Source of the DNA: Lentzea aerocolonigenes
GTDB taxonomy: Bacteria; Actinomycetota; Actinomycetes; Mycobacteriales; Pseudonocardiaceae
Assembly: GCF_000974445.1 (NCBI RefSeq)
Contig: NZ_BBOJ01000005.1
Location: 248,001 to 312,000 of the forward strand
Length of the DNA: 64,000 bases
Direction of reading: 5' to 3'
How positions within the stretch are numbered: position 1 is the stretch's first letter; each line of letters starts with the position of its first letter. Of the stretch, positions 45,604-63,007 are shown one piece after another. The notes under the pieces are model-generated. The model saw only the letters and a program-made list of their open reading frames with translations, made no database searches and was not told the DNA's origin. The position numbers and the translations under genes are program-made.

Positions 45604-47562
45604 TCATTCGGCCTCGTCGGCAGAGGACAGCGCTGGGATGAACTCCGCGTGCTTGCGATGGAGGTAGGCGCGGCTGGTCTGGTCCGTGGAGACCAGTTCC
45701 AGCGCCGAGCGGAACGCCTGCACCCTCCGGTCAGCCTGATCAAGCAGTTGTCCCCAGGTCACGACCCAGATCCGGTAGCGGGGATTGTTGGTGGTCAGGC
45801 CAGGTCGTGCGGGGTCGCTGTACAGGTTGCGGACCGCGTCGTCGACCTCGGTACCGACCAGCCAGAAGTCCCAGTCGTGCGGCGCGCCCACGACCTCCGG
45901 ATGGGCCGTGATGGCGGACGCGTAGTTGTTGACCTGCCCGAACTCGGTCATGGTGAGTCGCATCGGGCGCTTGAGCTCGACGACCAGGTGCCGGGTGCGC
46001 TCGCTCTCGGGCAGGGCACGGGAGAACACCATGTCCACCCGCCCCCGCTTGCCGGACGGCAGCTTCACCGGGTTCGAGGCGAACTCCACGTCGCCGCGTT
46101 CGGTGATCAGTGTGCGCACGACGCGGGTCAGCCCGGTCTCCGAGAGCGCCAGGCTCCACTCGTCGCCGAAGACCCACGGCTCGTTCACCAGCATCGGGTG
46201 GAGCTGGTCGACCTCGCGGAACACGGTCTTGGTCTCGTCGGCGTACAGCAGCCCGCGCAGCCCGTGCAGGAAGTCGGAGCGGTCCGCGATCGTCTGCGAG
46301 GCCCGGACGATTGAGGTCAGTTTGGTGCGTTCCAGCAGGTCGAACAGGACTTCCTGTTCGTCGTCGCTCAGGTCGAGCACCGCGTTCAGGATGCGGTTCG
46401 TGCGCGTGGGCTCGGCACGGGTGGCCTCCTGGAGCAGCCGCAGGGACAGCTTCTTCTGCTTGACGTCCCGACCGATGGCTGGGCTGGCCACCACCGCGAC
46501 GATGTCGAAGATCTCCCGCTCCACCTCCTCGGCGGCGCTGCGCGGCTCTCCGTGGTAGGGGTACACCCCTTCGGCCTTCCACTCAGCGAGGATGCTGCCC
46601 TTCTGCTCGTCCAACCGGCGGTTCAGGTAGTCAGCGAGCGCGCGTTGCGCGACCGCGAGCAACTCACCGTGCCGGATATCGGGTACGTGAAGGTCTGCCG
46701 GGCCCATCAGGTCGGGGTCGCGGAACCCTTCCCACTGCAGGTAGGCGGTCCAGTGGATCGGTGCCGGCGGCATGCGGCCGAGCTTGTGTTCGGTGACAAC
46801 TCCACCGCGTTCGTCACACAGATACAGGGTCTTGGACCGCATGTCGGCCGACCACTCGACAACCCGCAGTCGAGGGCGACCCTTTCCGTGCAGCGTTGCC
46901 GGATCGAGGTCCAGGTCGAGATCGACGTCGTGCGTGATGTGGGTCTGCGGGTTGAGGTGATGGCCGCAGTACTGCACCTTGACCTCGGGGAGCGCCAGCA
47001 GGGACGCCGCCAACCGCGCGGTCAAGGGCAGCTGGATCTCTCCGTCGACCAAGCTCGCGACCCGCGAAGTCTGCCGGGCTTCCATGCGAACGGTCGTGCC
47101 GGTCGGGCCGCTGGTTGGCCGCGGGCCGTCGAACGTGAATTCGTTCGGCGCGCTGCGGTTTCCGTGGATCACCGTCTCGCTGAAGGTGTCGCCATCGGCC
47201 GACACCGACCGCCACTCGACGCGCTCCGCGATGCCGTAGGCGAGGAAGCGGCCACGACCGAGCTGGCCATGCAGCGGTCGGTTGATGTTCGGGGAGAACC
47301 GACCGGTCCGTTTCCACGACTCGCCGTGGGTCAGAAAGAAGTCCGAAACTTGGTCATGGGGCATCCCGTGCCCGTCGTCCCAGACAACGATCTCCTCGGG
47401 CCCGTCGAGGCCACCGATGGCGACCGTCGTCTCGACGTTCATCGCCTCCGCGTCGAGGGCGTTCCAGATCAGCTCGGCGAGGATGTCGACCGGGCTCGCG
47501 CGCTCCACATACCCCAGGATCGTGTCCCGGCCCGCGCGTACCTGCTTGGTCTCCACCGCCAC
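45604..47562 (-). CDS. GHKL (HSP90-like) ATPase fused to a PD-(D/E)xK-like nuclease motif
   Basis: 652 residues. N terminus: AELIWNALDAEA (N box), WDDGHGMP (G1 box) and GRGRFLAYGIAERVEW (lid/G2), the Bergerat-fold ATPase of MutL/MORC/HSP90. Near residues 510-545, GRVDMVF...HLVVELKRP has the D...ExK spacing of PD-(D/E)xK nucleases. The middle part is helical and unassigned. ATP-gated nuclease activity against phage DNA is plausible. It is divergent from the Gabija-like pair across 180 bp. Codon use is like its neighbours. No transmembrane segment. Confidence 0.75.
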   Translation of the reverse strand: MAVETKQVRAGRDTILGYVERASPVDILAELIWNALDAEAMNVETTVAIGGLDGPEEIVVWDDGHGMPHDQVSDFFLTHGESWKRTGRFSPNINRPLHGQLGRGRFLAYGIAERVEWRSVSADGDTFSETVIHGNRSAPNEFTFDGPRPTSGPTGTTVRMEARQTSRVASLVDGEIQLPLTARLAASLLALPEVKVQYCGHHLNPQTHITHDVDLDLDLDPATLHGKGRPRLRVVEWSADMRSKTLYLCDERGGVVTEHKLGRMPPAPIHWTAYLQWEGFRDPDLMGPADLHVPDIRHGELLAVAQRALADYLNRRLDEQKGSILAEWKAEGVYPYHGEPRSAAEEVEREIFDIVAVVASPAIGRDVKQKKLSLRLLQEATRAEPTRTNRILNAVLDLSDDEQEVLFDLLERTKLTSIVRASQTIADRSDFLHGLRGLLYADETKTVFREVDQLHPMLVNEPWVFGDEWSLALSETGLTRVVRTLITERGDVEFASNPVKLPSGKRGRVDMVFSRALPESERTRHLVVELKRPMRLTMTEFGQVNNYASAITAHPEVVGAPHDWDFWLVGTEVDDAVRNLYSDPARPGLTTNNPRYRIWVVTWGQLLDQADRRVQAFRSALELVSTDQTSRAYLHRKHAEFIPALSSADEAE

Positions 47563-47742: not shown

Positions 47743-49539
47743 ATGCGTGTTCGGCAGTTGCGTATCTCGTCGTTCCGAGGTTGGCGAGAACTGGAGTTGC
47801 GAGCAGGACAACACGCCCTGGTCGTCGGCGAACCCCGAGCGGGCAGAAGCGACCTCATCGAGGCGCTTCGTCGGGTACTTGACCCGGACTCGACACGAAC
47901 CCCACCCAACGAGTTCGACGTGTACCTCGCTGCGCCCGACGACAGTGATCCTGGCGCCGAGGTCGAGGCGGACACCACCGATGCCGAGGAAGAACCTGCC
48001 GACGGCGACACCGAGATCGACATCCGCTCCGCCGAGATCGAGGTCGTGCTCTCCGACCTCGGCGAGGTACTCGAACAGCACTTCTTCCGTCGGCTCGAAC
48101 TGTGGGATGCCGAAGACGACGTGCTTGTCGAAGCATCCGCAGCCGAGGACCTGGACGAAGAGCGCCACGAGCTGGTGTTGCGACTGTGCTACCGGCTGCG
48201 TTGGAACCCCGAAGAGGGCGTGGGCGAGCACTGGGTGGACTATCCGAAAACGTCGGATCCCGACGACGAGAACTACGACCGGGCCCGCCGTCCCGACCGG
48301 AGCATGCTGCCGTTCATCGTCCTGATGCCCGGCCATCCCTTGACCCTGCGACCTGGCAGCGCCTTCCGTGAGCTGCTGAACTTGGGCGGCGACGACCTGG
48401 CCACCGCGCTGCAGGCGCTCTCCTCGGCGGTCGACAGCGCCACCGACGGGCTCAGCGCGACCGAGGCAGTCAGCGCCGTGCTGGACGACGTCTTCGAGCC
48501 CGTCCGGGGCACACTCGACATCGACGCCGACACCGCGATTGCGGACATCGTCAACTTCCGCGCCGAGGGCGGCTCGGTGGCAGGGCTCCTTCGAGCGCTC
48601 CAGCCAGCGTTGCGGCTCGGATCCCCGGAAGCGCTGCCCCTCCGCCGCCACGGGTCCACGACCTCTGCGGTGCTGGCGGCGGCGGAAGCCCTCGTGGTCG
48701 CCTCCCAGGCAGGCGCGGTCGTCGTGTGCGATGACTTCGGCGACCAACTCGACGCCGGTGCCGCCGAACATCTGGCACGCGAACTGCGAACCGCGTGCGA
48801 TCAACTGTGGATGTCAACTCGGCGTCCGGAAGCAGCACGCGCGTTTCGTCCCGAGGAGATGGTGCGGCTGTCGCTGCGAACGAGCGAACGTACCGCTCAC
48901 CAGATGGTGCCGCCGTCCGACAAACGCGAACTCGGCGTGGTGCGGCAACTCCACCTGCAGTTGCTCCCCGCCATGAGCAGCCGAGCGATCGTCGTGTTCG
49001 AAGGCCGTCACGACGTCGCAGCCCTGACCGCCATCAGCCAACGGCGCGCCGGCAAGCCGTCGCCTGCAGCGTACGGAGTCCGGTTCGTTGAAAGCGAAGG
49101 ACACACCGAGATCGTCAAGATCTGCAGGCTGGCGCGCCAGCTCGGCTTCCGGGTGATCGCCGGCCTCGACTTCGACAAGCCCGGCCAAGGCGCGGACATC
49201 TCCTTCACCGACGCGCAGCAGGTCGCCGATGACGTCATTCGACTGCCCGAACGATTCGCCATCGAGATGGCGCTCGTGCACGGAATCCCACGGCAGAGCC
49301 TGCTCGACGCGTTCACAGAACTGGACGAACAGTGGCAGCTCGGCTTGGCTGGCATGGACCAGCTCAATGACCGAGACCTGGAGAAGCGCCTCGCGAAGGC
49401 TCTGCACAAGTCCGGAGTGCACGCTCAGTACGTGTATCTGCTGTCCGGAAAGGCGCCCAAAGTCGCTATCCGATTCCTTGACCAGGCGGTGGAACTCGCG
49501 AGAGGGACGGTCACCGGGCCGGTGACGTTGACCGCATGA
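47743..49539 (+). CDS. GajA-like OLD-family ATPase with TOPRIM domain
   Basis: 598 residues from ATG 47743 (MRVRQLRISSFRGWRELEL, the OLD/RecF-type start). The Walker A loop reads GEPRAGRS, with Arg in place of the invariant Lys. A large acidic insertion follows (residues ~60-110). The Walker B-like strand VVVCDDFGDQLD has Asp-Asp instead of Asp-Glu. C-terminal TOPRIM: VVFEGRHDVAALTAI and GLDFDKPG (E and DxD). It is coupled by an ATGA overlap to the UvrD-like helicase, the GajA-GajB arrangement. The degenerate ATP site suggests nucleotide sensing without hydrolysis or regulation by the partner. Confidence 0.82.
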   Translation: MRVRQLRISSFRGWRELELRAGQHALVVGEPRAGRSDLIEALRRVLDPDSTRTPPNEFDVYLAAPDDSDPGAEVEADTTDAEEEPADGDTEIDIRSAEIEVVLSDLGEVLEQHFFRRLELWDAEDDVLVEASAAEDLDEERHELVLRLCYRLRWNPEEGVGEHWVDYPKTSDPDDENYDRARRPDRSMLPFIVLMPGHPLTLRPGSAFRELLNLGGDDLATALQALSSAVDSATDGLSATEAVSAVLDDVFEPVRGTLDIDADTAIADIVNFRAEGGSVAGLLRALQPALRLGSPEALPLRRHGSTTSAVLAAAEALVVASQAGAVVVCDDFGDQLDAGAAEHLARELRTACDQLWMSTRRPEAARAFRPEEMVRLSLRTSERTAHQMVPPSDKRELGVVRQLHLQLLPAMSSRAIVVFEGRHDVAALTAISQRRAGKPSPAAYGVRFVESEGHTEIVKICRLARQLGFRVIAGLDFDKPGQGADISFTDAQQVADDVIRLPERFAIEMALVHGIPRQSLLDAFTELDEQWQLGLAGMDQLNDRDLEKRLAKALHKSGVHAQYVYLLSGKAPKVAIRFLDQAVELARGTVTGPVTLTA

Positions 49540-51179
49540 CCACGACGCACCGGTTCCGCCCCATCGGCAAGCAACGCGACGTCCGCGACAGCGAGGCACC
49601 GACACTTCTCGTCCTCGGAGGCGCCGGTACCGGCAAGACCGTCACCGCCGCGGCGGCGGCCCGCACACACCTGCTCCGACGAGACGCGGACGCTCCCGCT
49701 GGCGTCGCTCGTGATCGTGCGCTGTTCTTGACTTTCAGCCGAACTGCGGTGACACAAATCCTCGGGCGCAGCAAGGGAATCCTCCGTGACGTCGCCGACC
49801 GGGTGGACGTGCTGACGTTTCATGGGCTGGCGTGGCAACTGGTATGCGACTTCGGTCGCTATGTCGGCCACAGCGAACGCCCCACGCTGCGTGGCGAAGC
49901 GGAAAGCAAACTGTTCCAAGAAGACCCCACTGTCTTGTCCTACAACGACTTGCTTCCCGAAGCTCTCAAGATCTTGCGCCTGCCGCACATCGGCCCGCTC
50001 GCGCAACGCCGGTGGTCCCTTGTGGTCTGCGACGAGTTCCAGGACACCGACAGCGAACAGTGGACCTTGCTCGAACGCCTTACGGAGGTTGGCAACCGGC
50101 TGCTGCTCCTCGGCGATCCCAACCAGATGATCTACGACAAGATCCCCGGTCGAAGGGGCGTCGGCCCTGAAAGGCTCGCCGCGGCGGTCGCACGGCCAGA
50201 CGCCATGCAGATTCCTTTGCCGCTCGGCTCGTATCGTGATCCAACTCAGCTGTTGCCCACCGTGGCCGAGGCAGTGCGCCAGCGAAACTTCACCCATCCG
50301 TCCCTTGCTGAAGCCCTTGCCAACGGAAGACTTCGCGTCGTGACCGGAGTCGACACCCATCCTGCGACCGATGAGGTATGCGCTGCGATCGACGAGAGTC
50401 GCGAGCGAGGAGCAAGCACATTCGGAATCTTCTTGCACGGCAACGAACCCACGGCCGCCATGTCCGCCGCACTCACCGAACGAGGAGTCGACCACGTCGC
50501 TGTTGGCCTCTCCGAGAGCTACGGAGAAGCGCTCAGCACCTTCATGATGATGATGCAGTTCGCCGCCGGCACCACCGCTTGGGACTACGTTTTGGTGCGG
50601 ATGGCCGTCTTCTACACCTCTACCGTCCGGAGCAAGTACGCCCCAGACTTGGCGTTCATTATCGGCAGAGGACAAGCCGAAGGTCTGCTTGCTACCAGGC
50701 TGGACGAACTCCGTGTCGCGCTATCGGACGCGCCTGACCTTGACGCCGCCGCTCACATCGCGGCCACCGGCTGGCCGGCGCTGGGACTCAACCGCGGCCA
50801 TCGGCAGTGGCGTCGAGCCGCCGCCGAAGTGATCCGGCTGATGGCCGTGTCCGGTCACGTGCTCGATGCCGTCAGTCGCCAAGTCGAGACGATGCGGATG
50901 GAGTCCTTCACCGACGTCGACGCTGGCGACCAGGCTGCCGTCCAGGTGATGAATCTCCATCAGACCAAAGGACGCGAGTCCGACGCCATCGTGGCCGTCT
51001 TCCGTACCAACGACTATTACGGCAACGAGTCCGAGCCATTCGAGAGTGCGAGCAGGCTGCTGTACGTAGTGCTGACGCGAGCACGCCAACGAGTCACCTT
51101 GCTGTTGCCCAACAGTCCACACCAGCTCGTCGCACCGTTCGTCGCTCTGACGGGACGCTACGGCGTCACCTCGACCTAA
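49536..51179 (+). CDS. GajB-like UvrD/Rep helicase
   Basis: 547 residues. Superfamily 1A motifs: Walker A VLGGAGTGKTVTA, Ia TFSRTAV, Walker B VVCDEFQDTDSEQW, III LLGDPNQMIYDK, V MNLHQTKGRESDAIVAVF, VI LLYVVLTRARQRVTLL. It is shorter than UvrD and lacks most of the 1B/2B insertions, like GajB. ATG 49536 overlaps the ATPase gene stop by 4 bp. The pair fits a Gabija-type system that degrades or nicks phage DNA when nucleotides are depleted (family knowledge). Its end overlaps the convergent HNH gene by 4 bp. Confidence 0.87.
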   Translation: MTTTHRFRPIGKQRDVRDSEAPTLLVLGGAGTGKTVTAAAAARTHLLRRDADAPAGVARDRALFLTFSRTAVTQILGRSKGILRDVADRVDVLTFHGLAWQLVCDFGRYVGHSERPTLRGEAESKLFQEDPTVLSYNDLLPEALKILRLPHIGPLAQRRWSLVVCDEFQDTDSEQWTLLERLTEVGNRLLLLGDPNQMIYDKIPGRRGVGPERLAAAVARPDAMQIPLPLGSYRDPTQLLPTVAEAVRQRNFTHPSLAEALANGRLRVVTGVDTHPATDEVCAAIDESRERGASTFGIFLHGNEPTAAMSAALTERGVDHVAVGLSESYGEALSTFMMMMQFAAGTTAWDYVLVRMAVFYTSTVRSKYAPDLAFIIGRGQAEGLLATRLDELRVALSDAPDLDAAAHIAATGWPALGLNRGHRQWRRAAAEVIRLMAVSGHVLDAVSRQVETMRMESFTDVDAGDQAAVQVMNLHQTKGRESDAIVAVFRTNDYYGNESEPFESASRLLYVVLTRARQRVTLLLPNSPHQLVAPFVALTGRYGVTST

Positions 51180-52084
51180 GCACCACCCGCGCCGCGGCTA
51201 ACGCGCCGCCGAATTTCGGCTGCCGTGGCCAACATTGCGTTGAGGCGTTCCTGAGTCATGCCCGGCTCCCAGATCGGCAGGGTCAGCGCCGACATCCATT
51301 CGCCTTCAACGCGATCTCCCGCCTCGGGCAGAGCATAGGCACGGAAACGGCGTGGCACGCGGGCGTGCTCCTTGATGATCTGCGTGATTCCCCCTGCGAC
51401 GGTGGGAATGTGCGCCGGCCACGCGGCGCTCGATTTTCCTTCAAGCCGCCGCGATGGAAAGTACAGCGAGTCATCCCGCGGGAACTGGTAGCACGGATAG
51501 GCCGATGCGTCGACATCGAAATCGATGCCGACAGCCCCGACCGTGGCAGCAACAAGTCCTTCGTTGACGACCTCCACTCCCAAGTACCGTTCCGCATCGG
51601 GGGCTGAGACCGTGGTGGTCGCCAGGCCCGAAAGCGGGATCGTCATCCACGTCAGTCCAAAGTGGATCATGCCGACCGGTTGAACTGTAAGCTTCACCTC
51701 GACCAAGGCGGCGAGAGATCGCTCGACGTGCTGCGCGATCTGAGCAAGCTGGTCGTCGGACAGCTCCCTGTTCATGCCGTCAGCGACCTGGCGGGCTTTC
51801 CAATCGAGAAGCTCCTCGACGGAGTAGGTCGACTCGTGGTCATCGACGGCCTTGTGGTGCTTGCCGCACAACAGAAGCAGGTTCTCCTCGGAATTGACCG
51901 ACTCATAGCCGACCACATGGCGCGGACCGCCGGGCGACCCCGACCTGATGTGCGCGATCTCAGCGACAACCGTGAGATGTCCGCGGTCCTCAAAGATCAG
52001 AGTCTCAGGACACGTTGGGTACGCGCATCGGGTCGCCCGCCCGAACAGGATCTTGATGGTCTTCTCCGAGTACGTGCGCTTCAC
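51176..52084 (-). CDS. HNH endonuclease-like protein with C-terminal unknown domain
   Basis: 302 residues. N-terminal HNH: RCAYPTCPETL, VVAEIAHIRSGSPGGPRH, ENLLLLCGKHHKAVDDH, with the structural Cys pair and the H-N-H residues present. The remaining two thirds (from ~110) form a beta-rich domain without recognisable motifs, perhaps for target recognition. Similar HNH plus unknown-domain proteins occur as solitary defence nucleases. It is convergent with the helicase gene and 25 bp before the first rlmN-derived fragment. Confidence 0.82.
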   Translation of the reverse strand: MKRTYSEKTIKILFGRATRCAYPTCPETLIFEDRGHLTVVAEIAHIRSGSPGGPRHVVGYESVNSEENLLLLCGKHHKAVDDHESTYSVEELLDWKARQVADGMNRELSDDQLAQIAQHVERSLAALVEVKLTVQPVGMIHFGLTWMTIPLSGLATTTVSAPDAERYLGVEVVNEGLVAATVGAVGIDFDVDASAYPCYQFPRDDSLYFPSRRLEGKSSAAWPAHIPTVAGGITQIIKEHARVPRRFRAYALPEAGDRVEGEWMSALTLPIWEPGMTQERLNAMLATAAEIRRRVSRGAGGA

Positions 52085-52109: not shown

Positions 52110-52347
52110 ACCTCAGGTCTTGAGCAACAAGTAGACCCCGACAGGCCATCGCTGTCCCGGATCTATGGCCACCTTCTCGGTGGCGGGCACAATTGCGCCT
52201 CCGACCGTGCGGTGGCCGACGCGATCATGGCCGGTGGAGCGGGAGTTCGTGCGGCGGGTGCGGGAGCAGGGTGTCGAGTGCACCGTGCGTGACACGCGTG
52301 GGCAGGAGATCGCCGCTGCCTGCGGCCAGCTCGCCGCCGAGGGTTAG
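52110..52347 (+). pseudogene. Mosaic of methyltransferase 5' fragment and rlmN 3' end
   Basis: 52110-52230 matches the start of the methyltransferase gene at 60079-60200 (reading [20 protein letters not shown] in the original frame), and from about 52234 the sequence switches to the 3' end of rlmN ([39 protein letters not shown] at 52345-52347). The junction falls at GATCATGGCC-GGTGGAGC. The fused frame joins an out-of-frame part of the methyltransferase gene to the correct rlmN frame. No start codon context is convincing, so it is a recombination scar. Confidence 0.8.
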
Positions 52348-52384
52348 AACCCGCTGAGGTTCACCTGGGAAACCGATCGACCCG

Positions 52385-53041
52385 GTGCAATCTGTGGCTC
52401 ACACTTCTACGGTGACCGAGTGGTTTGAGCTTCCGACGCCCCCGTGGCCGAACTCTGAGGCTGATCTCCTTGCAGGCGGTGATGATTGGTGGTTCGTCGC
52501 CTGCATGGATTGGCCTCGCGACGCTTGGATCGGCTACATCGAGGGGTACCGGAAGGCAGCCGGCTTGATGCTCGCGCGAGTGGCCGAGACAGGACGCGAT
52601 CAGGACTATCTCGTCTACCCCTTCCTGATGTGCTGGCGCCAGCATATCGAGCTTCAACTCAAAAACCTGATCATCCAGTGCACACGCTACAAGGATGAAG
52701 AGGTTGACTTCCCTCGCACGCACAAGCTCGAAGTGCTATGGCGCAAAGCGCGGAAGCTGTTGAACGAGGTATACCCGGACGACACCGCCGCCATCGACGA
52801 CGTCGAGCGTCTGCTGCTTCAGCTTCAGGCCTGTGACCCCACTTCGGAGCACTTCAGGTACCCGGTTGCGAAGGATGGGTCGCCTACCCTCGGAGCGCTT
52901 CCGCGAGTCCACATGCGCCTGTTCCAGGAGGCGATGGAGGGTGTCGCGACCTACCTCGACGCAACTGACACAGGACTTCGCGAGAAGATCAATTCTCGGG
53001 ACGACTACCGTGCGGCGATGTACGACATGTACGGTCAGTGA
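52385..53041 (+). CDS. HEPN-like helical protein, first of a pair
   Basis: 218 residues. Predicted all-helical with RQHIELQLKNLIIQCTRYKD in the first half, followed by HKLEVLWRKARKLLNEVYPD, an arrangement seen in many HEPN-superfamily and abortive-infection proteins; the strict R-x4-H motif is not clear. No membrane segment. Probable start GTG 52385 (GTG 52394 is an alternative); no strong Shine-Dalgarno. It is followed 20 bp later by a protein with a clear R-x4-H motif, so the two probably act as one system. Confidence 0.55.
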   Translation: MQSVAHTSTVTEWFELPTPPWPNSEADLLAGGDDWWFVACMDWPRDAWIGYIEGYRKAAGLMLARVAETGRDQDYLVYPFLMCWRQHIELQLKNLIIQCTRYKDEEVDFPRTHKLEVLWRKARKLLNEVYPDDTAAIDDVERLLLQLQACDPTSEHFRYPVAKDGSPTLGALPRVHMRLFQEAMEGVATYLDATDTGLREKINSRDDYRAAMYDMYGQ

Positions 53042-53061
53042 CGGCAGCCTGAGAGGCAAGT

Positions 53062-53907
53062 TTGCGAAACACAGCGGTTGTTGAGTTCGCTGCCTACCGT
53101 CAGTACGAAGCGACGCGTGCCGAAGCCAACAACGCCATGATGGGACTCCTCGCGGGTGCAAAACTGGCGGCCCACATGCTGAAGCTCACTGAGGGTTCCC
53201 AGCGGTTGTTGCCTGAGGTTTTTCCGCAAGTCGAGCACATCGAGCGCGTCAACCTTACCAGCGAGGCGGCGCGCGCGATTCTGGTTGATGCCGACTCACA
53301 TCTAGGTGCGATGAGCGTTCCTTACGCCCTCGCGCTGCACGAGGATTTCCTCAAGACCTGTCTGGAACTGCTCGAAGTAGCCGGCAAGTGCGCGAGGAAT
53401 ACTGCGAGAGACTCGAAGCTCGCGACTCAACACGGCCTTATCGAGACGGCGACCGGACGAGCCTTCAGCCCGGACAGCCTGATCCAGCTCTCGACGATCA
53501 GGGTGATGCGAAACTGCGTCATTCACGAGGGTGGCCGGGTCAGTGGTGCACTGGTCAACAAGTTGGGATCATGGACTACGCAAATCGAGGCTGCTTGGGA
53601 GAAGGTTGCCGGCACGAGTCCCCGGGGCCTCCAGGTTGGCGATCCAGTCACCTTCGGGCATGGCGAGTTGGTGCTTACGTTGGCCGTGACGAAGCGACTG
53701 GCGCGTGAAGCGAACGGGATGCTTCTGGGAGCCATCCCGAAGGCGCAATGGGCCGACCTGGTCATCGACGACATGATCGCCTCAACGAAGAACGCGATGA
53801 AACGGTCTGATGTGGCCAGGAGAGCGCAGGGGCTTGCGCGACACCACTACTCGGCCGTGGGGCTCGACGAGCAAGACATCCTGAATGCGATCGCGCGTCG
53901 AACGTGA
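53062..53907 (+). CDS. HEPN-like protein with R-x4-H motif
   Basis: 281 residues, predicted helical. IRVMRNCVIHEGG near residue 150 has the RNxxxH signature of HEPN ribonucleases, preceded by a helix with polar residues as in that fold. The rest has no recognised domain. It would be the effector or a regulated RNase of the pair with the upstream 218-residue gene. Lies between an rlmN fragment upstream and a terminator downstream. Codon use resembles its neighbours. Confidence 0.6.
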   Translation: MRNTAVVEFAAYRQYEATRAEANNAMMGLLAGAKLAAHMLKLTEGSQRLLPEVFPQVEHIERVNLTSEAARAILVDADSHLGAMSVPYALALHEDFLKTCLELLEVAGKCARNTARDSKLATQHGLIETATGRAFSPDSLIQLSTIRVMRNCVIHEGGRVSGALVNKLGSWTTQIEAAWEKVAGTSPRGLQVGDPVTFGHGELVLTLAVTKRLAREANGMLLGAIPKAQWADLVIDDMIASTKNAMKRSDVARRAQGLARHHYSAVGLDEQDILNAIARRT

Positions 53908-54276
53908 CCTGGCCCGCAAAACGAAGAACGGGTCTGCCGCGATGCTGCGGTAGACCCGTTCCCGGAAGGAAAAGAGGGGCTCTGCTACTTGAGCTACGCG
54001 CCCCGTAAGGCGGCCAGGACTCGCACCTGGATCTCCCTGCCACTGTGGAACCTCTGGCTATGAGCCAGTAGGGCCGAACCCAGCTCCTGTTCACAGATTA
54101 ACATGCGGTCTGGTGTGGGCCGGTCACATGGAGGGTGTGACCTGCATCTCGGTTGTGACTGCGGCGGATTCGACGTCGCGGCAAGTGCTGTCTCGCCGGC
54201 GTTTTGCCTGGTCAGGCCATCTCCAGTGATCTTTGTAAACGGTAGGGACGGGCGAACCTCTAGCAATTTATCGCCG
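53908..54276. other. Gap with terminator, tRNA-like fragments and unknown DNA
   Basis: About 370 bp. Contains the terminator at 53927-53960. At 53975-54085 (minus strand) there are tRNA-like pieces, such as a D-arm-like AGCTC...GAGC element next to GGGGCGC and a T-arm-like CCAGG-N7-CCTGG hairpin, but they do not assemble into one tRNA. The rest up to the rlmN fragment is featureless. Confidence 0.4.
53927..53960 (+). terminator. Terminator-like hairpin
   Basis: AACGGGTCT/AGACCCGTT forms a 9-bp stem, continued by CCGC/GCGG after one mismatch, 20 bp after the HEPN gene stop. Confidence 0.75.
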
Positions 54277-54567
54277 AAGACCGGCCGCCGTGTCTCGATC
54301 GAGTACGCGTTGATCCGGGACATCAACGATCAGGGCTGGCGTGCCGATCTGCTTGGCAAGAAGCTGCGCAAGCAGCTCGGGCGGCTGGTGCACGTGAACC
54401 TGATCCCGTTGAACCCGACTCCGGGCGGCAAGTGGTACGCGTCGCCGAAACCGGCGGAGCGGGAGTTCGTGCGGCGGGTGCGGGAGCAGGGGGTCGAGTG
54501 CACCGTGCGCGACACGCGTGGGCAGGAGATTGCGGCGGCCTGTGGACAGCTCGCGGCCGAGGGATGA
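54277..54567 (+). pseudogene. rlmN 3'-end fragment B
   Basis: About 96 codons encoding the C terminus of RlmN (23S rRNA/tRNA adenine-C2 methyltransferase): [20 protein letters not shown], then [40 protein letters not shown] and [11 protein letters not shown] with TGA at 54565. The radical SAM Cys motif and everything before are missing. Upstream sequence in the same frame (to 54103) has no RlmN similarity. Shares high identity with fragment A over their common part. Confidence 0.85.
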
Positions 54568-54581
54568 TTACGCCGGCCGCC

Positions 54582-55907
54582 TCACATTTCCTGAGGCAAG
54601 TCAGAATGCTGTGGGAAGGCCTGAAGGAGGACTGTCAGTATATGTCGCATTCCGGTCCAATCAGAGTGCTTGACCTCTTCCGGGTTGGCGCGACATTTAG
54701 CCAGCTTGGCGCGAAATGATTTTTGAATGCCATGCTTGTCTGACACTTCGCCTTGGTAGCGACTGATGCTCTGAATAAACGAGCGCCATTGAACGGGTAG
54801 CAGATTGCCCGTGGCGTCAGTTAAGACATCGCGTCCTAGGTAGAGTTCGATACTTCCTGCTAGTCCGTTTATGTCAGCAAGCTCTTGAGTGCCATTTGGG
54901 TGCTCGGCCGTAGGCGGTCCAAGTGTTGGATATCTTCGCAATTCGTCTAGGTTGGGGTACTGTGTAACAACAATATTTGCCGGTAGCTTGAACTTTGTGA
55001 GCGGTTGCATTGCGTCAACTGCCGCGGAATCATTATCGAAGATTGCTACCACTCGGTTTGCGATGCCGGCTGCAGCGAAGGACTTGACGAGTCGGGCTAA
55101 AGCTCCGGCTCCGCCTTCGGGGCGCGCGTCATAGTCCAGAAATTTGATGAGGTCGGTTAGATGGGGGAACAGTAGCTCCAAGCTCGCAGCTAGGAACTCG
55201 GCGTCGGTACGACCTTCGGTTAGTACAATGACTGGTGCATGTGAGCCTGAATTCGCCTGCAATGCCGACAATGACTGTGAGGCAAGTGTGTCGGGATCGC
55301 CATAAATCCAGTCCTCCTCCACGAGATCAGTAACGTCGAGCCGTACCTCGCTGTCTGGGTACACAAGGAGCACGGCGCGGAGCGCGTGCGGCGGGAACCA
55401 CTCCACAACCTGTCCAAGAAGCCAGTCGATGCTGCCGATCTCTGATCGAAACGTGCTCGGAGGTCGGTCGTGGTCGCTATGGTCCATGCCTTGGTCTTCT
55501 TTTGCGGCTATGGCGCGGTCGAGCCAAAGCTGTGGTGTAAGTTGATCGAGGGCAGCATCTTCGGCTTCCAGTCTGGCTCTATATTCATCGCTCAGGCCGG
55601 AGGGCAAGTTCGAACTGTGCCTGTGTCGACCTTCACCATGTAGAAAATATTCGAGAAGTTCTGCGACGGTGTCCGCAGTGATTCCGAGAGCGTCGAGTCG
55701 TTGGGCAATGACTCGACCGTCGGCGCGAAACTCATAGACATCGACAAGTTCCGCCCCGCTCCCCTCTTCGTTGTAGTACTCGTTCCATGGAACCTGGTGC
55801 TTGACCAGCATGTCGTCGCGGAACGCTGCCAAGAGCTCTTGATCGATGCCATCGCGCAAGCGATTCACGACCAGAGTGCCAACCGACAGCGTCCCGTAGT
55901 AGCTCAC
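54582..55907 (-). CDS. HEPN/Toprim-type protein
   Basis: 441 residues. The N terminus MSYYGTLSVGTLVVNRLRDG resembles the HEPN/Toprim-associated N-terminal domain. A TOPRIM domain in the second half has VIVLTEGRTDAEFLAASL (Glu) and VVAIFDNDSAAV (DxD). It lacks the ATPase domain of OLD proteins. The base composition is visibly lower in GC than neighbouring genes, with many AT-ending codons, a sign of recent transfer. It is convergent to rlmN fragment B and preceded on the other side by fragment C. Probably a stand-alone nuclease-type defence gene. Confidence 0.75.
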   Translation of the reverse strand: MSYYGTLSVGTLVVNRLRDGIDQELLAAFRDDMLVKHQVPWNEYYNEEGSGAELVDVYEFRADGRVIAQRLDALGITADTVAELLEYFLHGEGRHRHSSNLPSGLSDEYRARLEAEDAALDQLTPQLWLDRAIAAKEDQGMDHSDHDRPPSTFRSEIGSIDWLLGQVVEWFPPHALRAVLLVYPDSEVRLDVTDLVEEDWIYGDPDTLASQSLSALQANSGSHAPVIVLTEGRTDAEFLAASLELLFPHLTDLIKFLDYDARPEGGAGALARLVKSFAAAGIANRVVAIFDNDSAAVDAMQPLTKFKLPANIVVTQYPNLDELRRYPTLGPPTAEHPNGTQELADINGLAGSIELYLGRDVLTDATGNLLPVQWRSFIQSISRYQGEVSDKHGIQKSFRAKLAKCRANPEEVKHSDWTGMRHILTVLLQAFPQHSDLPQEM

Positions 55908-55962
55908 AGCTGAGATGTTACGGCTGTGGCTGTTGGGCCACGGTTCTCGCTTATCTCCGATG

Positions 55963-56050
55963 GGTTCGCTCGGGTTGAGGCACAGCGTGTGACGTGCATG
56001 GTGAGGGACACCCGCGGTCAGAGGATCGCGGCGGCTTGCAGCCGAAGGCT
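55963..56050 (+). pseudogene. rlmN 3'-end fragment C (diverged)
   Basis: The frame reads GFARVEAQRVTCMVRDTRGQ RIAAACS, matching the RlmN C terminus ([25 protein letters not shown]) but with more substitutions than fragments A and B, so from a different donor or older. The frame runs on past the normal end (RRLITVSLM). Confidence 0.7.
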
Positions 56051-56115: not shown

Positions 56116-56931
56116 GTGTCATCCGAGCGGTCAGGCCCCAAGTCATCCAAGTGGTCCCCTGATGCGCGCTTGAGGCTGGTCAACGAGCTGGCGGACCGAA
56201 CAGGGTCGTTTAGCGAGAGCTTCTTCGACGCGCACGGACTTGGTTCGGCCTACCGCGATGCCGGCAAGTACACCAACAAGAAGGCGCGGATCAATGCTGC
56301 GCTGCATGCTGCACAGCTCCGCGGCGACGTGACCAAGGTTCTCGATGCTGCGCGGGCGTATCTTGGCGGTCAGTCAGTTGATCAAGACGAGTCGGCTGGC
56401 CCTGTTGATCAAGGGGATTTGCTCGTGGCGTCAGACAAGCTGTTCATCAGTCATGCCTTCGCGGATAAAGCACTGGCAGACCTTCTGCGTGACACGCTCG
56501 TCCTTGCAGGCGTCCCGGAAGGCCGCATCTTCTACTCGTCGGATCGTCGTACTGGCATCCCGTCAGGTACGGACGTTGGTACACATCTGCGGCAGTCGCT
56601 GCGTGAAGCCGGTCTAGTGGTTGAGCTGCTGACCGAAACGTTCTTCTCGCGGTCGATGTGTCTCATGGAGCTTGGCGGTGCGTGGGCACTCGGCCTCCCG
56701 ACGTATCCGATTGTCGTACCGCCGCTGACTCGTGACGAAGCGGTGAGGCAGATCGGGAACGTGCAGATGGGCCTCCTTGGCGATGACGTGCAGATCAGTG
56801 AGGTGTTCGACGAGTTGCACGATCGACTTACGGACGACCTGGATATCCGGACGAAGGCCACGAGTTGGAACCGCGTCGTCGGTGGCTTCCGGGATCAGCT
56901 TCCGTTGAAGCTGCGAGCAGCAGCGCCGTAG
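56116..56931 (+). CDS. TIR-domain protein
   Basis: 271 residues from GTG 56116. The TIR domain spans about 105-240: KLFISHAFADKALADLLRDT, IFYSSDRRTGIPSGTDVG, VELLTETFFSRSMCLMELGG, with the predicted NADase Glu in CLMELGGAW. The N-terminal ~100 residues are helical and lack a known sensing domain. As bacterial TIR proteins often deplete NAD+ in infection, it is a candidate abortive-infection effector. The gene starts about 70 bp after rlmN fragment C. No partner gene is coupled to it. Confidence 0.8.
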   Translation: MSSERSGPKSSKWSPDARLRLVNELADRTGSFSESFFDAHGLGSAYRDAGKYTNKKARINAALHAAQLRGDVTKVLDAARAYLGGQSVDQDESAGPVDQGDLLVASDKLFISHAFADKALADLLRDTLVLAGVPEGRIFYSSDRRTGIPSGTDVGTHLRQSLREAGLVVELLTETFFSRSMCLMELGGAWALGLPTYPIVVPPLTRDEAVRQIGNVQMGLLGDDVQISEVFDELHDRLTDDLDIRTKATSWNRVVGGFRDQLPLKLRAAAP

Positions 56932-57025
56932 AGCCAGAAGCATGAAGCAGCAGGTAGAGGCGTTGTAAAACGGTAGGCAGCGGCGACCCGCTGTCAACAT
57001 CACGACGGTCCTGGTCTCACCCTCG

Positions 57026-59714: not shown

Positions 59715-60053
59715 GAGGCGAGAACCTATCACCGCCTTCGTACATACGTTCGATCCGACGCGTGCGGCGCACAAACTGACCCGGCTCGCACGCTCGGTAC
59801 CACCCGCGTGAGTGACCACGACCGTGCTGGAAGGAGTGCTCAGGCGGGGTACCGCCGCATGGACGCCTCACGAACGCCTCGGTCGCGCTCTGGTCCGGAT
59901 CTTCCTGCCACCGGTCTAATCACCGACACCAATCGGCTCGGCCGACTTAGGGCAGTGCGGTTGAACCGCTAACTCGTCAGGTCGCCGGAGTTGGCCAGAC
60001 ACACGACGAGTCGGGTCGTGGTGGCGCGGCGGGCGGGGGAGAAGATCACGGTG
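59715..60053. other. Gap with LexA-like box
   Basis: About 340 bp; the only element seen is the second LexA-box-like palindrome at 59738-59753. No credible coding frame. Confidence 0.35.
59738..59753. promoter_or_regulatory. Second LexA-box-like palindrome
   Basis: On the minus strand TCGAACGTATGTACGA, sharing the centre CGAACGTATGT with the box at 59051-59066 and deviating from the LexA consensus in one base. It precedes ATG 59714 by 24 bp. Confidence 0.5.
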
Positions 60054-60890
60054 ATGACGATGTATGACGGCGCGTCAGGTCTTGAGCAGCAAGTAGACCC
60101 CGACAGGCCATCGCTGTCCCGCATCTATGACCACCTGCTCGGCGGCGGGCACAATTTCGCCGCCGATCGTGCGGTGGCCGACGCGATCACGGCCGTGGTG
60201 CCGCACTACGAGGTGTTCGTCCGTGCGAACCGCGCCTTTGTACATCGCGCGGTGCTACACATGCTCACCGCAGGGATCGAGCAGTTCCTCGACCTGGGCG
60301 CGGGTCTGGGCGGCGTTCGCCACGTGCACGAACTCGCTCAAGCCGAGCGGCCCCAGGCCCGCGTTGTCTACGTTGACCGCGATCCCGTGGCCGTTGCACG
60401 TCTCAGCCTGATCGCGCCCCAGGCTTATCCGGGAATCGGCGTGCTCGAAGCGGACCTGCGGCACGTCGACGAGGTGCTCGACCATGTTGTGACCGCTCAG
60501 ATACTCGATCTGACCCGCCCAGTGGGCGTGGTGGCCGGGTCAGTGTTGCCTTGCCTGCCCGACGCCGAAGAAGTGGCCGCTACCTTGGCCGGGTACCACG
60601 AACGACTGGCGCCCGGTTCGCTGTTGGCGGCCTCACACACCGACGCCACGCTGCTGGGGCACGAGCTGGCCGCTGCGGTCGAAGCCCGGCTCGCCAGGGC
60701 CGGGATCACGCTCGTGCACCGGAACCGACAGCAGTTCGCAGCGCTGCTGGGTCCGTGGCAGCCGCACCCGGACGGCGTGGTGCCGACCGGCTTGTGGCGG
60801 CCAGACGGCCTCGCCCCGCCCCTGCCGGAGTCCTTGTGGGGCAACGCCGTTCTGGCCGGCCATGGCCACGAGCCAGCAGGACCTGCGTGA
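60054..60890 (+). CDS. SAM-dependent methyltransferase (DUF574/Methyltransf_19 type)
   Basis: 278 residues from ATG 60054 (GGGGAG 14 nt upstream; GTG 60051 also possible). [25 protein letters not shown] is the family's opening signature; the SAM site is FLDLGAGLGGVRHVHELAQ and VVYVDRDPVAVARL. The family is abundant in actinomycetes and its substrates are largely unknown. The gene overlaps the STAND NTPase gene by 4 bp (GTGA). A 5' fragment of a close relative is fused to an rlmN end at 52110-52230. Confidence 0.85.
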   Translation: MTMYDGASGLEQQVDPDRPSLSRIYDHLLGGGHNFAADRAVADAITAVVPHYEVFVRANRAFVHRAVLHMLTAGIEQFLDLGAGLGGVRHVHELAQAERPQARVVYVDRDPVAVARLSLIAPQAYPGIGVLEADLRHVDEVLDHVVTAQILDLTRPVGVVAGSVLPCLPDAEEVAATLAGYHERLAPGSLLAASHTDATLLGHELAAAVEARLARAGITLVHRNRQQFAALLGPWQPHPDGVVPTGLWRPDGLAPPLPESLWGNAVLAGHGHEPAGPA

Positions 60891-63007
60891 AAAAGGCCGT
60901 GCACCGCAACACCGTGTCCGGAACGGTCTATGGCCAGGTTGTGCAAGCCCGCACGGTCACCGCCGACACCATCGTTCTGAACTCTTCCGAGCGCCGCGTA
61001 CTGGTGCCTCGACAGCTTCCGCCGCCCACGCGCACGTGGGTCGACCGCGCGGACGAACTGGACCGGCTGGACCGCTTGCTCACGACGGCGGACCCGACTC
61101 GCGTCGTGGTGACTGGCCTGGGCGGTGTCGGCAAGACCGGCTTGGCGGTGCGGTGGCTCGACGCGCATCACGAGCTCCACCCCGACGGCGTACTGCACAC
61201 CGACCTCAACGGCTGGAGCGGTCACCTGCCGCCGGTCACCGGCCAGGTCCTGGCCGGATGGCTCCGGGCGCTCGGTGTCGCCGCCGACGACCTGCCGGGT
61301 GAGGCTGCCGAACTGATCGGGCTGTACCGGACCGTGACCGCCGGCAAGGCGATCGCAGTGCTCGTCGACAACGCCCGCTCCGCCGAGCAAGTGCGGCCCC
61401 TGATACCCGCCACGACGCGCGGCACGATCCTGGTAACCAGCCGCCGCAGGCTCACCGGTCTGGCTCTCGCGGGCTTCCGTCACCTCGACCTCGGCTGCTT
61501 CCCCGCGGCCACCGGCGCTGCACTTCTGGCCAGCTTGCTCGACGAGGACCGACAACCTCTCGGCGAGGACCTGCTCCACGCGCTGGCCGCCCGCTGTCAC
61601 GGGCATCCGCTGGCCTTGACCATCGCCGGGGCCCACCTCTCCGCGCATCCCCAACGCGACCCGGCACGCCTGATTGCCCGCCTGACCCGCCTCGCCGAGG
61701 CGTCCGCCGCTGGGGACCCGTACGAGCTATCCATCGAAGGAGTGCTGCAGATGACCTATGAAGACCTTGACGCCACCACTGCCCGGCTCTACCGGAGCCT
61801 GGCCGAGCACCCCGGTCCTGAGTTCACCGCCGAGCCGCTCGCCGCCGGGCTCGGAGTGCCGGTCACCGAGGTTGAATGCGGGCTCGCCCGGCTGGTGGAG
61901 GCCAACTTGGTTACCGAGACCGGGGACGAGCGCTACCGGCCGCACGACGTCGTGGGCGAGCACATGCGGGCCTTGGCCGGCGAGGATGACCAAACTGAGC
62001 GGCTGGCGGTGCGGCGCCGGATGATCGACTGGTATCTGCGGCGCGCGGCGGAAGCCGACAAGGTCATCAACCCTTTCCCACGTCGATTCAGCGACGTCTA
62101 CGTCGGCCTGGACACGGGCGTGTTCGCCGACGCCAAGGCCGCTTTGGACTGGGCCGAGATCGAACGCACCAACATCCTCGCGGCTCAACAGGCCGCCGCG
62201 GACCAGGGCTGGACGGAGCTGGTGTACCAGTTCGGCGAGGTTCTGTGGAATGCGCTGCGCCCCAACTACACCGCGGGTGAGCTGGTGCGCTCGCAGGTCC
62301 TCGGGGCCGATGCCGCCGCCGACGCCGGGCACATCCTGGAGGTCGTCTGCCGCATCCGGCAGGGTTTCGGCGAGACCAACCTCGGCGACCACGAGGCGGC
62401 CATCGTCACCTGCACCATCGCCGTCGAACGTGCTGCTGAACTCGGCGACCCGTGGCTGCAATCCGGCGCGTTGTCCACCCGCGCCCGCGCCCACCTCAAA
62501 GCCGACGATCCGCGCGCTGCGCTGCCGGATCTGCACCGGGCCCTGGAATTCGCCGAGGAGATGAACGACGCCCGCAGCATCGCATTGCGGCACCGCCGCC
62601 TCGGCGAAACCGCCCTGCACCCCAAGATCGCCGACGCCCGGCTCGCACTCCACCACCTGCGGCTGGCGGCGAGCATGTTCACCGGCATCGGGGACGACAT
62701 CGGCCACGCCCGCACCGTCCTGCACCTGGCGCGGGCTCTGACCCTCAACGGGCAAGCGGCCGAGGCGGTGTCCGAACTGGTCGCGATCGAGCAGACGGTG
62801 CGCGACTACGGCTCGGTCGGCTACCTCGCCGACCTGTGCACCGCGCTCGGCGAGGTCCACGTCGCGCTCGGCGACACCGCCGAGGCCCGCCGCCACTACG
62901 GCCAGGCTATCGACTGCTACACCGCCGCCGGCCCCGGCGCAGACAAGAGCAAGGCCGCCGTCATCGACCGGCGCGACGCGCTCGGTTGCGACCAACCGAC
63001 CGCCTGA
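60887..63007 (+). CDS. STAND NTPase (NB-ARC) with TPR repeats
   Basis: 706 residues from GTG 60887, which overlaps the methyltransferase stop. N-terminal NTVSGTVYGQVVQARTVTAD is a beta-hairpin motif common ahead of actinobacterial STAND ATPases. The NB-ARC core has Walker A TGLGGVGKTGLA, Walker B KAIAVLVDNA, sensor ILVTSRRRLTGL, and GHPLALTIAGAHL. A winged-helix-like part follows, then TPRs (about 390-690). No nuclease or TIR effector is fused, so the partner methyltransferase or downstream gene may be the effector. The family includes regulators and anti-phage sensors. Confidence 0.87.
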   Translation: MKKAVHRNTVSGTVYGQVVQARTVTADTIVLNSSERRVLVPRQLPPPTRTWVDRADELDRLDRLLTTADPTRVVVTGLGGVGKTGLAVRWLDAHHELHPDGVLHTDLNGWSGHLPPVTGQVLAGWLRALGVAADDLPGEAAELIGLYRTVTAGKAIAVLVDNARSAEQVRPLIPATTRGTILVTSRRRLTGLALAGFRHLDLGCFPAATGAALLASLLDEDRQPLGEDLLHALAARCHGHPLALTIAGAHLSAHPQRDPARLIARLTRLAEASAAGDPYELSIEGVLQMTYEDLDATTARLYRSLAEHPGPEFTAEPLAAGLGVPVTEVECGLARLVEANLVTETGDERYRPHDVVGEHMRALAGEDDQTERLAVRRRMIDWYLRRAAEADKVINPFPRRFSDVYVGLDTGVFADAKAALDWAEIERTNILAAQQAAADQGWTELVYQFGEVLWNALRPNYTAGELVRSQVLGADAAADAGHILEVVCRIRQGFGETNLGDHEAAIVTCTIAVERAAELGDPWLQSGALSTRARAHLKADDPRAALPDLHRALEFAEEMNDARSIALRHRRLGETALHPKIADARLALHHLRLAASMFTGIGDDIGHARTVLHLARALTLNGQAAEAVSELVAIEQTVRDYGSVGYLADLCTALGEVHVALGDTAEARRHYGQAIDCYTAAGPGADKSKAAVIDRRDALGCDQPTA

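Follow-up and report, generated by a model that had tools for sequence, protein, structure and literature searches.

Displaced rlmN halves point to rlmN as a probable docking gene for small cassettes in Pseudonocardiaceae

Introduction

Staphylococcal cassette chromosome (SCC) elements are cassettes that dock in an rRNA methyltransferase gene, rlmH, restore it, and stack with remnant attachment sites. Cis-mobilizable elements (CIMEs) are recombinase-free segments, bounded by attachment sites, that are moved in trans and stack at one gene. In integrons, small cassettes that often hold toxin-antitoxin genes form ordered arrays by means of a recombinase acting in trans. Here we analyze a 64,000-nucleotide stretch of DNA from Lentzea aerocolonigenes (hereafter the window), in which displaced pieces of the 3′ end of rlmN, itself an rRNA methyltransferase gene, stand among candidate defence genes. 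From this array and from 297 genomes of the same actinobacterial family, Pseudonocardiaceae, we propose that rlmN is likely a docking gene for small mobile cassettes.

The proposed rlmN cassettes are like SCC in docking in an rRNA methyltransferase gene, in restoring it, and in stacking in tandem. However, SCC uses the extreme 3′ end of rlmH and its own Ccr serine recombinases, whereas rlmN cassettes replace about 190 codons from codon ∼191, and no recombinase of the Ccr type or any other was found in the 28 cargo proteins scanned with Pfam. As far as the cargo was scanned, the cassettes look recombinase-free and end-bounded, as CIMEs are, but CIMEs are usually decay products of larger elements, whereas rlmN cassettes are small units with a long gene-restoring half. 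They differ from integrons in that each unit carries half of a housekeeping gene, and the scanned cargo contains no integron integrase. Unlike gene-restoring integrative elements, they show no element-encoded integrase among those proteins.

The open-access literature that we searched yielded no description of rlmN cassettes; the closest case is an actinomycete integrative and conjugative element (AICE) in a Streptomyces rlmN gene. According to the sections of the article drawn on here, AICE03 of Streptomyces sp. RLB3-6 is inserted in rlmN with 11-nucleotide direct repeats and encodes a divergent integrase and an excisionase (PMC9513070). It resembles the rlmN cassettes in being actinobacterial, in its target gene, and in its short repeats, but it is a conjugative element of a family defined by TraB, and the same sections mention neither toxin-antitoxin cassettes nor stacked 3′ halves (PMC9513070). 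None of the traB, rep, and int modules of AICEs is present among the 28 scanned cargo proteins. The logic is thus a known one, and the variant is apparently undescribed.

Results

Displaced rlmN 3′ pieces in the family

Displaced rlmN 3′ pieces are present in at least 24 of the 297 family genomes, the named matches being Pseudonocardiaceae. In 21 of these genomes the pieces lie downstream of rlmN, at distances of up to 12.5 kb, and in three (the window genome and the genomes numbered G056 and G133) they are remote from it. The total is a lower bound, because no more than 17 candidates per genome were scored in the underlying search. The count starts from 24 genomes in which the C-terminal 96 residues match at more than one place, from which four were removed as having distant paralogs at 34–36% rather than displaced ends (G177, G221, G279, and G283), and to which four were added through the arm searches described below (G165, G204, G207, and G291). 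It includes G158, whose rlmN is split over contigs, and G291, which has an arm and a weak remnant only. Among 296 genomes drawn across the class, two of which belong to the family, six from outside the family have two rlmN matches. Four of the six were followed (all but G618 and G661), and none of the four holds a displaced 3′ end: the second matches are paralogs at 36–41% in G632, G783, and G636, and a whole tandem rlmN copy in G740.

Within the genus of the window genome, rlmN is present in all 24 genomes, and the bases right after its stop codon are of many types. Besides the window genome, two others (G014 and G001) have displaced 3′ pieces of rlmN, no more than about 1.4 kb past the gene. 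In G014, rlmN is followed by an antitoxin-like gene, a MazF-type toxin gene, and then a second rlmN copy that starts at codon ∼191 and is broken by an inversion. In G001 a VapC-type cassette comes next, and then an rlmN end that has been shortened. Genes for PIN-domain toxins begin no more than 330 bp past the rlmN stop in 4/24 genus genomes (G001, G011, G002, and G019).

A fixed dock and a conserved arm

The displaced copy starts at codon ∼191 in G014, G150 (two copies), G263, G238, G076, G032, and G149. This point, the dock, sits in the conserved GMGEP motif, ∼561–571 bases before the rlmN stop. Directly before each such copy is an arm of ∼18 bp that is not derived from rlmN and begins GTTGTAA. 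A degenerate arm stands at the same place in G042, and in G191 the sequence after the arm comes from farther along rlmN. The displaced copies in G001, G040, G044, G078, G099, and G252 begin later and have no arm recognizable by pattern, as would be expected of decayed copies.

The arm and the adjoining core were searched for as two versions, class I and class II, with up to two mismatches allowed. Each version occurs at nine sites in 8/297 genomes, with none found by the reversed-pattern control for class I and one by that for class II; together, the two classes account for 18 sites in 15/297 genomes. An exact scan for class I across 84,980 species returned five contigs only, all from Pseudonocardiaceae (Longimycelium, two from Actinophytocola, Actinokineospora, and Actinocrispum); the species with arm sites include Actinophytocola oryzae DSM 45499 and Actinocrispum wychmicini DSM 45934. 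When 19 arm sites are aligned, similarity starts at the G that precedes TTGTAA (17/19), with only weaker biases upstream. Although similarity inside the arm is partly imposed by the search patterns, nothing is imposed upstream of it, and this abrupt onset argues that the arm is an end and not a gene. Thus, the insertion site is fixed across unrelated insertions, and rlmN codons from ∼191 follow the arm at the aligned sites except in G191 and at one window site, scar D. A palindromic attachment site, tempting by eye, differs between the two arm classes and is not claimed here.

Chimeric working genes

The clearest evidence for exchange at the dock comes from G076. Relative to G127, its nearest genome by the 5′ half of the gene, the intact rlmN of G076 is mismatched at 8/540 positions of the 5′ half but at 109/559 positions of the 3′ half (Fisher test, 2.3×10−25), whereas the displaced copy has 8/559 mismatches. 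The maximum-chi-square break falls at position −559, with 0/500 shuffles as high. The intact gene agrees with the genus consensus over −594 to −560 and diverges at −559 and beyond, while the departure on the arm side is at −566, and so the switch is confined to about six bases, GGGCGA (core GGGnGA). In the tree of 3′ halves, the displaced copy of G076 groups with G127 (100/95). The working gene of G076 is thus strongly supported as a chimera, in which the native part ends at codon ∼190 and foreign sequence takes over, with a native 3′ half standing downstream.

The working genes of G263 and G150 are likewise chimeric at codon ∼190, on weaker statistics. Their breaks both lie at −562 (0/500 and 8/500 shuffles as high, respectively), and the displaced copies, in G150 the farthest one, are nearer to a genus-mate than are the intact 3′ halves (Fisher tests, 1.8×10−4 for G263 and 3.3×10−8 for G150). 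For comparison, a single pair out of 72 within-genus background pairs breaks most strongly in the interval −575 to −545; these pairs share genomes and so are not independent, and G165 and G133 are represented among them. In the 3′-half tree, the farthest displaced copy of G150 pairs with G134 (100/96), while the intact gene of G150, its middle copy, G263, and G040 fall together (98/89) and join G247 (100/92). For G263 (p = 0.006) and G150 (p = 0.007), an approximately unbiased (AU) test rejects a single clade that unites genus-mates with both the intact and the displaced 3′ halves; it does not reject genus-mates with the displaced half alone (0.25 and 0.115, respectively). A target gene restored by the end of an element, with crossover in a short core, is therefore seen in G076 (∼6 bp), with G263 and G150 agreeing less strongly.

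Cargo and stacking

Toxin-antitoxin or defence matches occur in 9 of the 13 genomes whose cargo was scanned with Pfam. The cargo comprises PIN/VapC proteins in G150, G044, and G001, MazF-type proteins in G150, G014, and G042, a ParE-type protein in G191, Gp49 with a helix-turn-helix (HTH) protein in G040, AbiEi in G165 (PADLOC, 1×10−84), and QatC with an RmrA-like M78 protein in G263. Of the four other genomes, G247 has an RHS protein with PA14, G238 has DUF5956 along with proteins that lack a clear match, G207 has a lectin and an HTH-TPR protein among others, and G291 has a protein of glycosyl hydrolase family 25 among others.

The order of insertion can be read in G150, where rlmN is followed by a ladder of further rlmN copies: the farthest is native, and the one in the middle is similar to the foreign half in the working gene. 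Behind the displaced half are VapC-type genes in G076 and G149, and also a MazF-type gene in G149. This ladder and the toxin genes behind displaced halves match what stacking by repeated insertion at one point predicts.

Some elements in the family are larger. In one genus, elements of ∼9–12.5 kb (L205, L206, and L102) carry giant open reading frames (ORFs), assigned to RHS by Pfam in G247. In G207 the element also has a second copy of the 89-amino-acid gene next after rlmN; a mobile piece can therefore extend beyond rlmN.

Phages and viruses were considered as carriers of the cassettes and set aside. A tblastn comparison of the rlmN 3′ half with 50,697 phage records found 26 records, all below 60% identity, and in 23 the match spans 80% or more of the query; in viral contigs the same 3′ half found one locus, at 39% identity, and the arm patterns had no exact match. 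Among plasmids, three Actinobacterial records top the best 30 of 247 matches, and the one that was followed has a whole rlmN in its usual neighbourhood.

The window array

The window is part of contig C51 in the 10.7-Mb genome of L. aerocolonigenes. The functional rlmN, which the original prediction had proposed to locate, is an intact gene of 380 codons on contig C43 (31132–32175; TIGR00048, 319.6 bits) and the sole intact copy in the genome; thus, the array does not stand beside rlmN in the current assembly. As had also been predicted, blastn with this gene identifies three rlmN 3′ pieces in the window, here called A, B, and C, all on the plus strand. TIGR00048 also picks up two window pieces, which score under its cut-off. 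By way of control, the same rlmN reversed without complementing gives one match in the window, at E = 0.059.

The left border of the array is a truncated piece of a PF04672-type methyltransferase gene (52119–52232, plus strand, read by eye). This piece resembles the start of an intact paralog at 59991–60890 (PF04672, E = 8.1×10−59) and is joined to fragment A over three or four shared bases, also judged by eye. Fragment A (52230–52347, plus strand) comprises rlmN codons ∼343–380 and the stop. It matches the genome's own rlmN at 105/114 positions (52230–52343, 92%) and is 94.7–95.6% identical to the five best-matching rlmN genes of the genus. The cargo that follows consists of two plus-strand genes, one of 218 amino acids (52385–53041), whose listed start is 38 bp past the stop of A, and one of 281 amino acids (53062–53907). 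The label of a HEPN pair given earlier to these genes is not confirmed: the first has a weak Pfam HEPN match (E = 0.099, below cut-off), and the second has no match in Pfam, PADLOC, PHROGs, or NCBIfam. Single-sequence AlphaFold models of both are all-helical, at very low confidence (predicted local distance difference test scores of 41 and 38, respectively). Relatives of the second gene occur in 10 of 294 family genomes, its own included. Within ∼1.5 kb of the match at the nine other loci there is neither an arm nor a convincing rlmN fragment (best tblastn E = 0.061), so the helical cargo is not tied to rlmN. Behind the helical pair, a stretch resembling a tRNA or Y RNA (53975–54038, minus strand, by eye extending to ∼54090) was considered and rejected, as it scores 24 bits against a cut-off of 69 for Rfam YrlA, and ARAGORN reports no tRNA there.

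A loose arm scan places the right-end arm of this first cassette, with the crossover core, at 54233–54259 (plus strand), running into rlmN codons ∼191–196. The arm fails the stricter class II pattern by one indel and was aligned with the 18 other sites; it leads into a few codons of the rlmN GEPLAN motif, and then an internal deletion precedes fragment B. Fragment B (54277–54567, plus strand) is a displaced piece with rlmN codons 285–380 and the stop, codons ∼197–284 being missing. It matches the genome's own rlmN at 261/292 positions (54278–54569, 89%) and at 93.75% over 96 amino acids by tblastn, and it clusters with the genus labelled g1 in the tree (100/100). The original prediction had assigned A and B to separate events, which is plausible, although similarity alone does not show it. 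Because A and B resemble rlmN genes of the genus, the stack was probably built inside the genus.

The second cassette carries a 441-amino-acid HEPN/Toprim-like protein (54582–55907, minus strand), whose gene ends 15 bp past the stop of B; Pfam HEPN_Toprim_N matches at E = 0.0014 and 19.1 bits and does not reach its cut-off of 25. Fragment C (55971–56045, plus strand) is a decayed piece with rlmN codons 351–375, recognized by tblastn over 25 codons at 68% (E = 6.6×10−5) and by blastn at 43/56 positions (55983–56038, 77%, E = 2×10−5). The third cassette carries a TIR protein of the SpbK kind (56116–56931, plus strand), supported by PADLOC spbK (E = 5.8×10−23), PDB entry 9phb (SpbK, E = 3×10−8), and Pfam TIR_2 (4.7×10−6, with 27.5 bits slightly under the cut-off of 28). 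Its right-end arm, a fourth scar called scar D (56963–56989, plus strand), fits the class II pattern without mismatches and is followed by a degenerate GEPLAN-like stretch to ∼57001; there is no significant rlmN similarity past the arm. Taken together, the layout suggests that the window holds a relic of three stacked cassettes (the helical pair, the HEPN/Toprim-like gene, and the SpbK-like TIR gene), with rlmN missing on the left.

The window is not alone in having remote rlmN ends. In G056, which belongs to another genus, two rlmN 3′ ends lie ∼2.1 Mb from rlmN (L106, 5911–6656) and flank a small gene whose product looks secreted. In G133, a short remote rlmN 3′ piece (L107, 6431–6515, minus strand; 71% over 85 bases) has no recognizable cassette.

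Defence genes next to the array

Upstream of the array is a Gabija pair at ∼47743–51179 on the plus strand (PADLOC GajA, 1.3×10−29; GajB, 1.3×10−40). The HNH gene that had been counted among the flanking modules (51176–52084, minus strand; PDC-M68A, 2.2×10−25) belongs with this pair, sharing four bases with the end of gajB, and so lies outside the array. Farther upstream, a HATPase gene (45604–47562, minus strand) has a type II restriction match (3.1×10−9). The Gabija pair and the HNH and HATPase genes constitute a defence neighbourhood adjoining the array. On the other side, a large gene at 60551–63007 (plus strand), after the intact PF04672 methyltransferase gene, has a weak DpdH match (PADLOC, E = 0.0034).

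Discussion

The data support a fixed dock and a shared arm, a gene restored by a foreign half with the native half displaced, stacking, and cargo that is frequently of the toxin or defence kind. In the explanation that we favour, a cassette would consist of a spare rlmN 3′ half (codons ∼191–380 and the stop), cargo, and the ∼18-bp right-end arm that begins GTTGTAA. The cargo would often be one toxin-antitoxin or defence module, and may sometimes be lost. A site-specific recombinase supplied in trans, most likely the tyrosine integrase of an actinomycete integrative element, would cross the core of the cassette with that of rlmN, such that rlmN would be interrupted and restored in one step and the host's old 3′ half would be left behind downstream of the cassette. 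Further events of this kind would then pile cassette upon cassette, with the old 3′ ends remaining as a ladder. In the window, the stack may have been carried off from rlmN by an illegitimate join to the methyltransferase fragment.

This explanation modifies the original prediction, whose interpretation is partly supported. Repeated capture of modules at the 3′ end of rlmN, each bringing a replacement end, had been envisaged; the displaced ends downstream of rlmN in 21/297 genomes and the chimeras in G076, G263, and G150 bear out the capture, but the point of entry is codon ∼191 and not the 3′ end, and hence about 190 codons are replaced. The displaced pieces, where this can be tested, are the host's old halves and not the incoming ones. 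The proposal that rlmN is a hotspot for such modules is upheld by the toxin-antitoxin and defence cargo of the scanned genomes, and cargo directly downstream of rlmN in relatives, which was to be looked for, is indeed found, with rlmN bordering toxin and defence genes. Site-specific recombinases, also to be sought, did not appear among the 28 cargo proteins.

A bolder reading is that rlmN serves as an integron-like platform, in which single toxin-antitoxin or defence modules, each sealed by its own spare half, would be natural cassettes shuffled in trans at a 6-bp point in GMGEP, and relics would seed defence islands at other places in the genome, the window being one example. Under such an arrangement, rlmN itself would proofread integration, because only cassettes that rebuild a working rRNA methyltransferase would be tolerated. 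We regard this broader proposal as tentative and rather doubtful.

Several observations weigh against the docking explanation. Some concern the chimeras. The AU test on the 3′ half of G076 gives no rejection, whether G038 is left out (0.058) or included (0.153), and a grouping of the G076 5′ half with all four genus-mates is itself rejected (0.006), since G038 falls elsewhere. The 3′/5′ mismatch ratios of G263 and G150 are inside the background range, only that of G076 being far out, so the case for these two genomes rests on break position, displaced copies, and trees. Within those trees, G165, a genus-mate of G150, adjoins the mixed-genus group of 3′ halves (93/91), and G263 and G247 pair in the 5′ tree as well (88/87). 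In G238, which has its break at −556 (15/500), the displaced copies do not come closer to its mates, and G032 and G149 are without a close relative that could decide chimerism. In the genus of the window, 0/59 strong breaks fall in −575 to −545 and 23/59 fall in the next bin, −550 to −501. The two rlmN 3′ halves of G014 are 99.8% identical, which local duplication fits too.

Other such points concern cargo and the window. The distance from the rlmN stop to the arm is 46 bases in G076, 43 in G149, and 42 in G032, which leaves almost no cargo, and G076, the clearest chimera, is thus among the cargo-free insertions; in G252 and G078 the interval holds no ORF of at least 45 amino acids above the coding-score limit. 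With little or no cargo in these five genomes, cargo is common but not universal. In the window, arm copies stand at two places, fragments A and C have none, and the arm scan found none in front of C; how the array came to sit away from rlmN is a guess. Finally, none of the 28 cargo proteins has a Pfam match to a recombinase, relaxase, or transposase family, a result that covers those proteins, since many small ORFs were unscanned and serine recombinases were not searched for genome-wide. The nearest tyrosine recombinase is ∼10, 14, and 16 kb to the 5′ side of rlmN in the three complete genomes examined.

Some of these observations suit ordinary homologous recombination. Its crossovers could fall at any point of the ∼570 bp in common, and the arm at the junction would descend from a single old event. 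Both partners do carry this homologous stretch, the near-identical halves of G014 speak for it, and displaced copies that start behind the arm are expected from it as well. Random crossovers, however, should spread the breaks, whereas those of G076, G263, G150, and G238 lie between −562 and −556, and the switch in G076 is narrowed to about six bases in an interval where a single background pair breaks. We consider homologous recombination unlikely as the source of the insertions.

The lack of a recombinase in the scanned cargo and the position of the nearest tyrosine recombinase could instead mean that the exchange is site-specific but driven by chromosomal XerC/XerD or by a resident serine recombinase, and not by the integrase of an element. 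However, the neighbouring tyrosine recombinase stands where xerC usually lies, and its nearness may thus mean nothing; we hold a chromosomal driver to be quite improbable. Plain segmental duplication of rlmN followed by decay, with toxin-antitoxin genes there by chance, would suit the tandem duplicate in the small genome G740, the duplication-like G014, and the three displaced copies that follow almost no cargo, but it leaves unexplained both the foreign working half with its native displaced half and the arm common to different genera, no displaced 3′ end was seen among the four genomes followed outside the family, and it is very improbable.

If rlmN is a docking gene, as we consider likely, the finding bears on an open question, the route by which single toxin-antitoxin units and small defence modules that encode neither a transposase nor an integrase pass from one bacterium to another. 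The preserved junctions, with their fixed dock, conserved arm, and displaced native half, give both the direction and the order of events. The GTTGTAA arm together with the GGGnGARCC core provides a sequence tag for spotting unannotated cassettes. In this family, a core rRNA methyltransferase gene is seen rebuilt from foreign halves.

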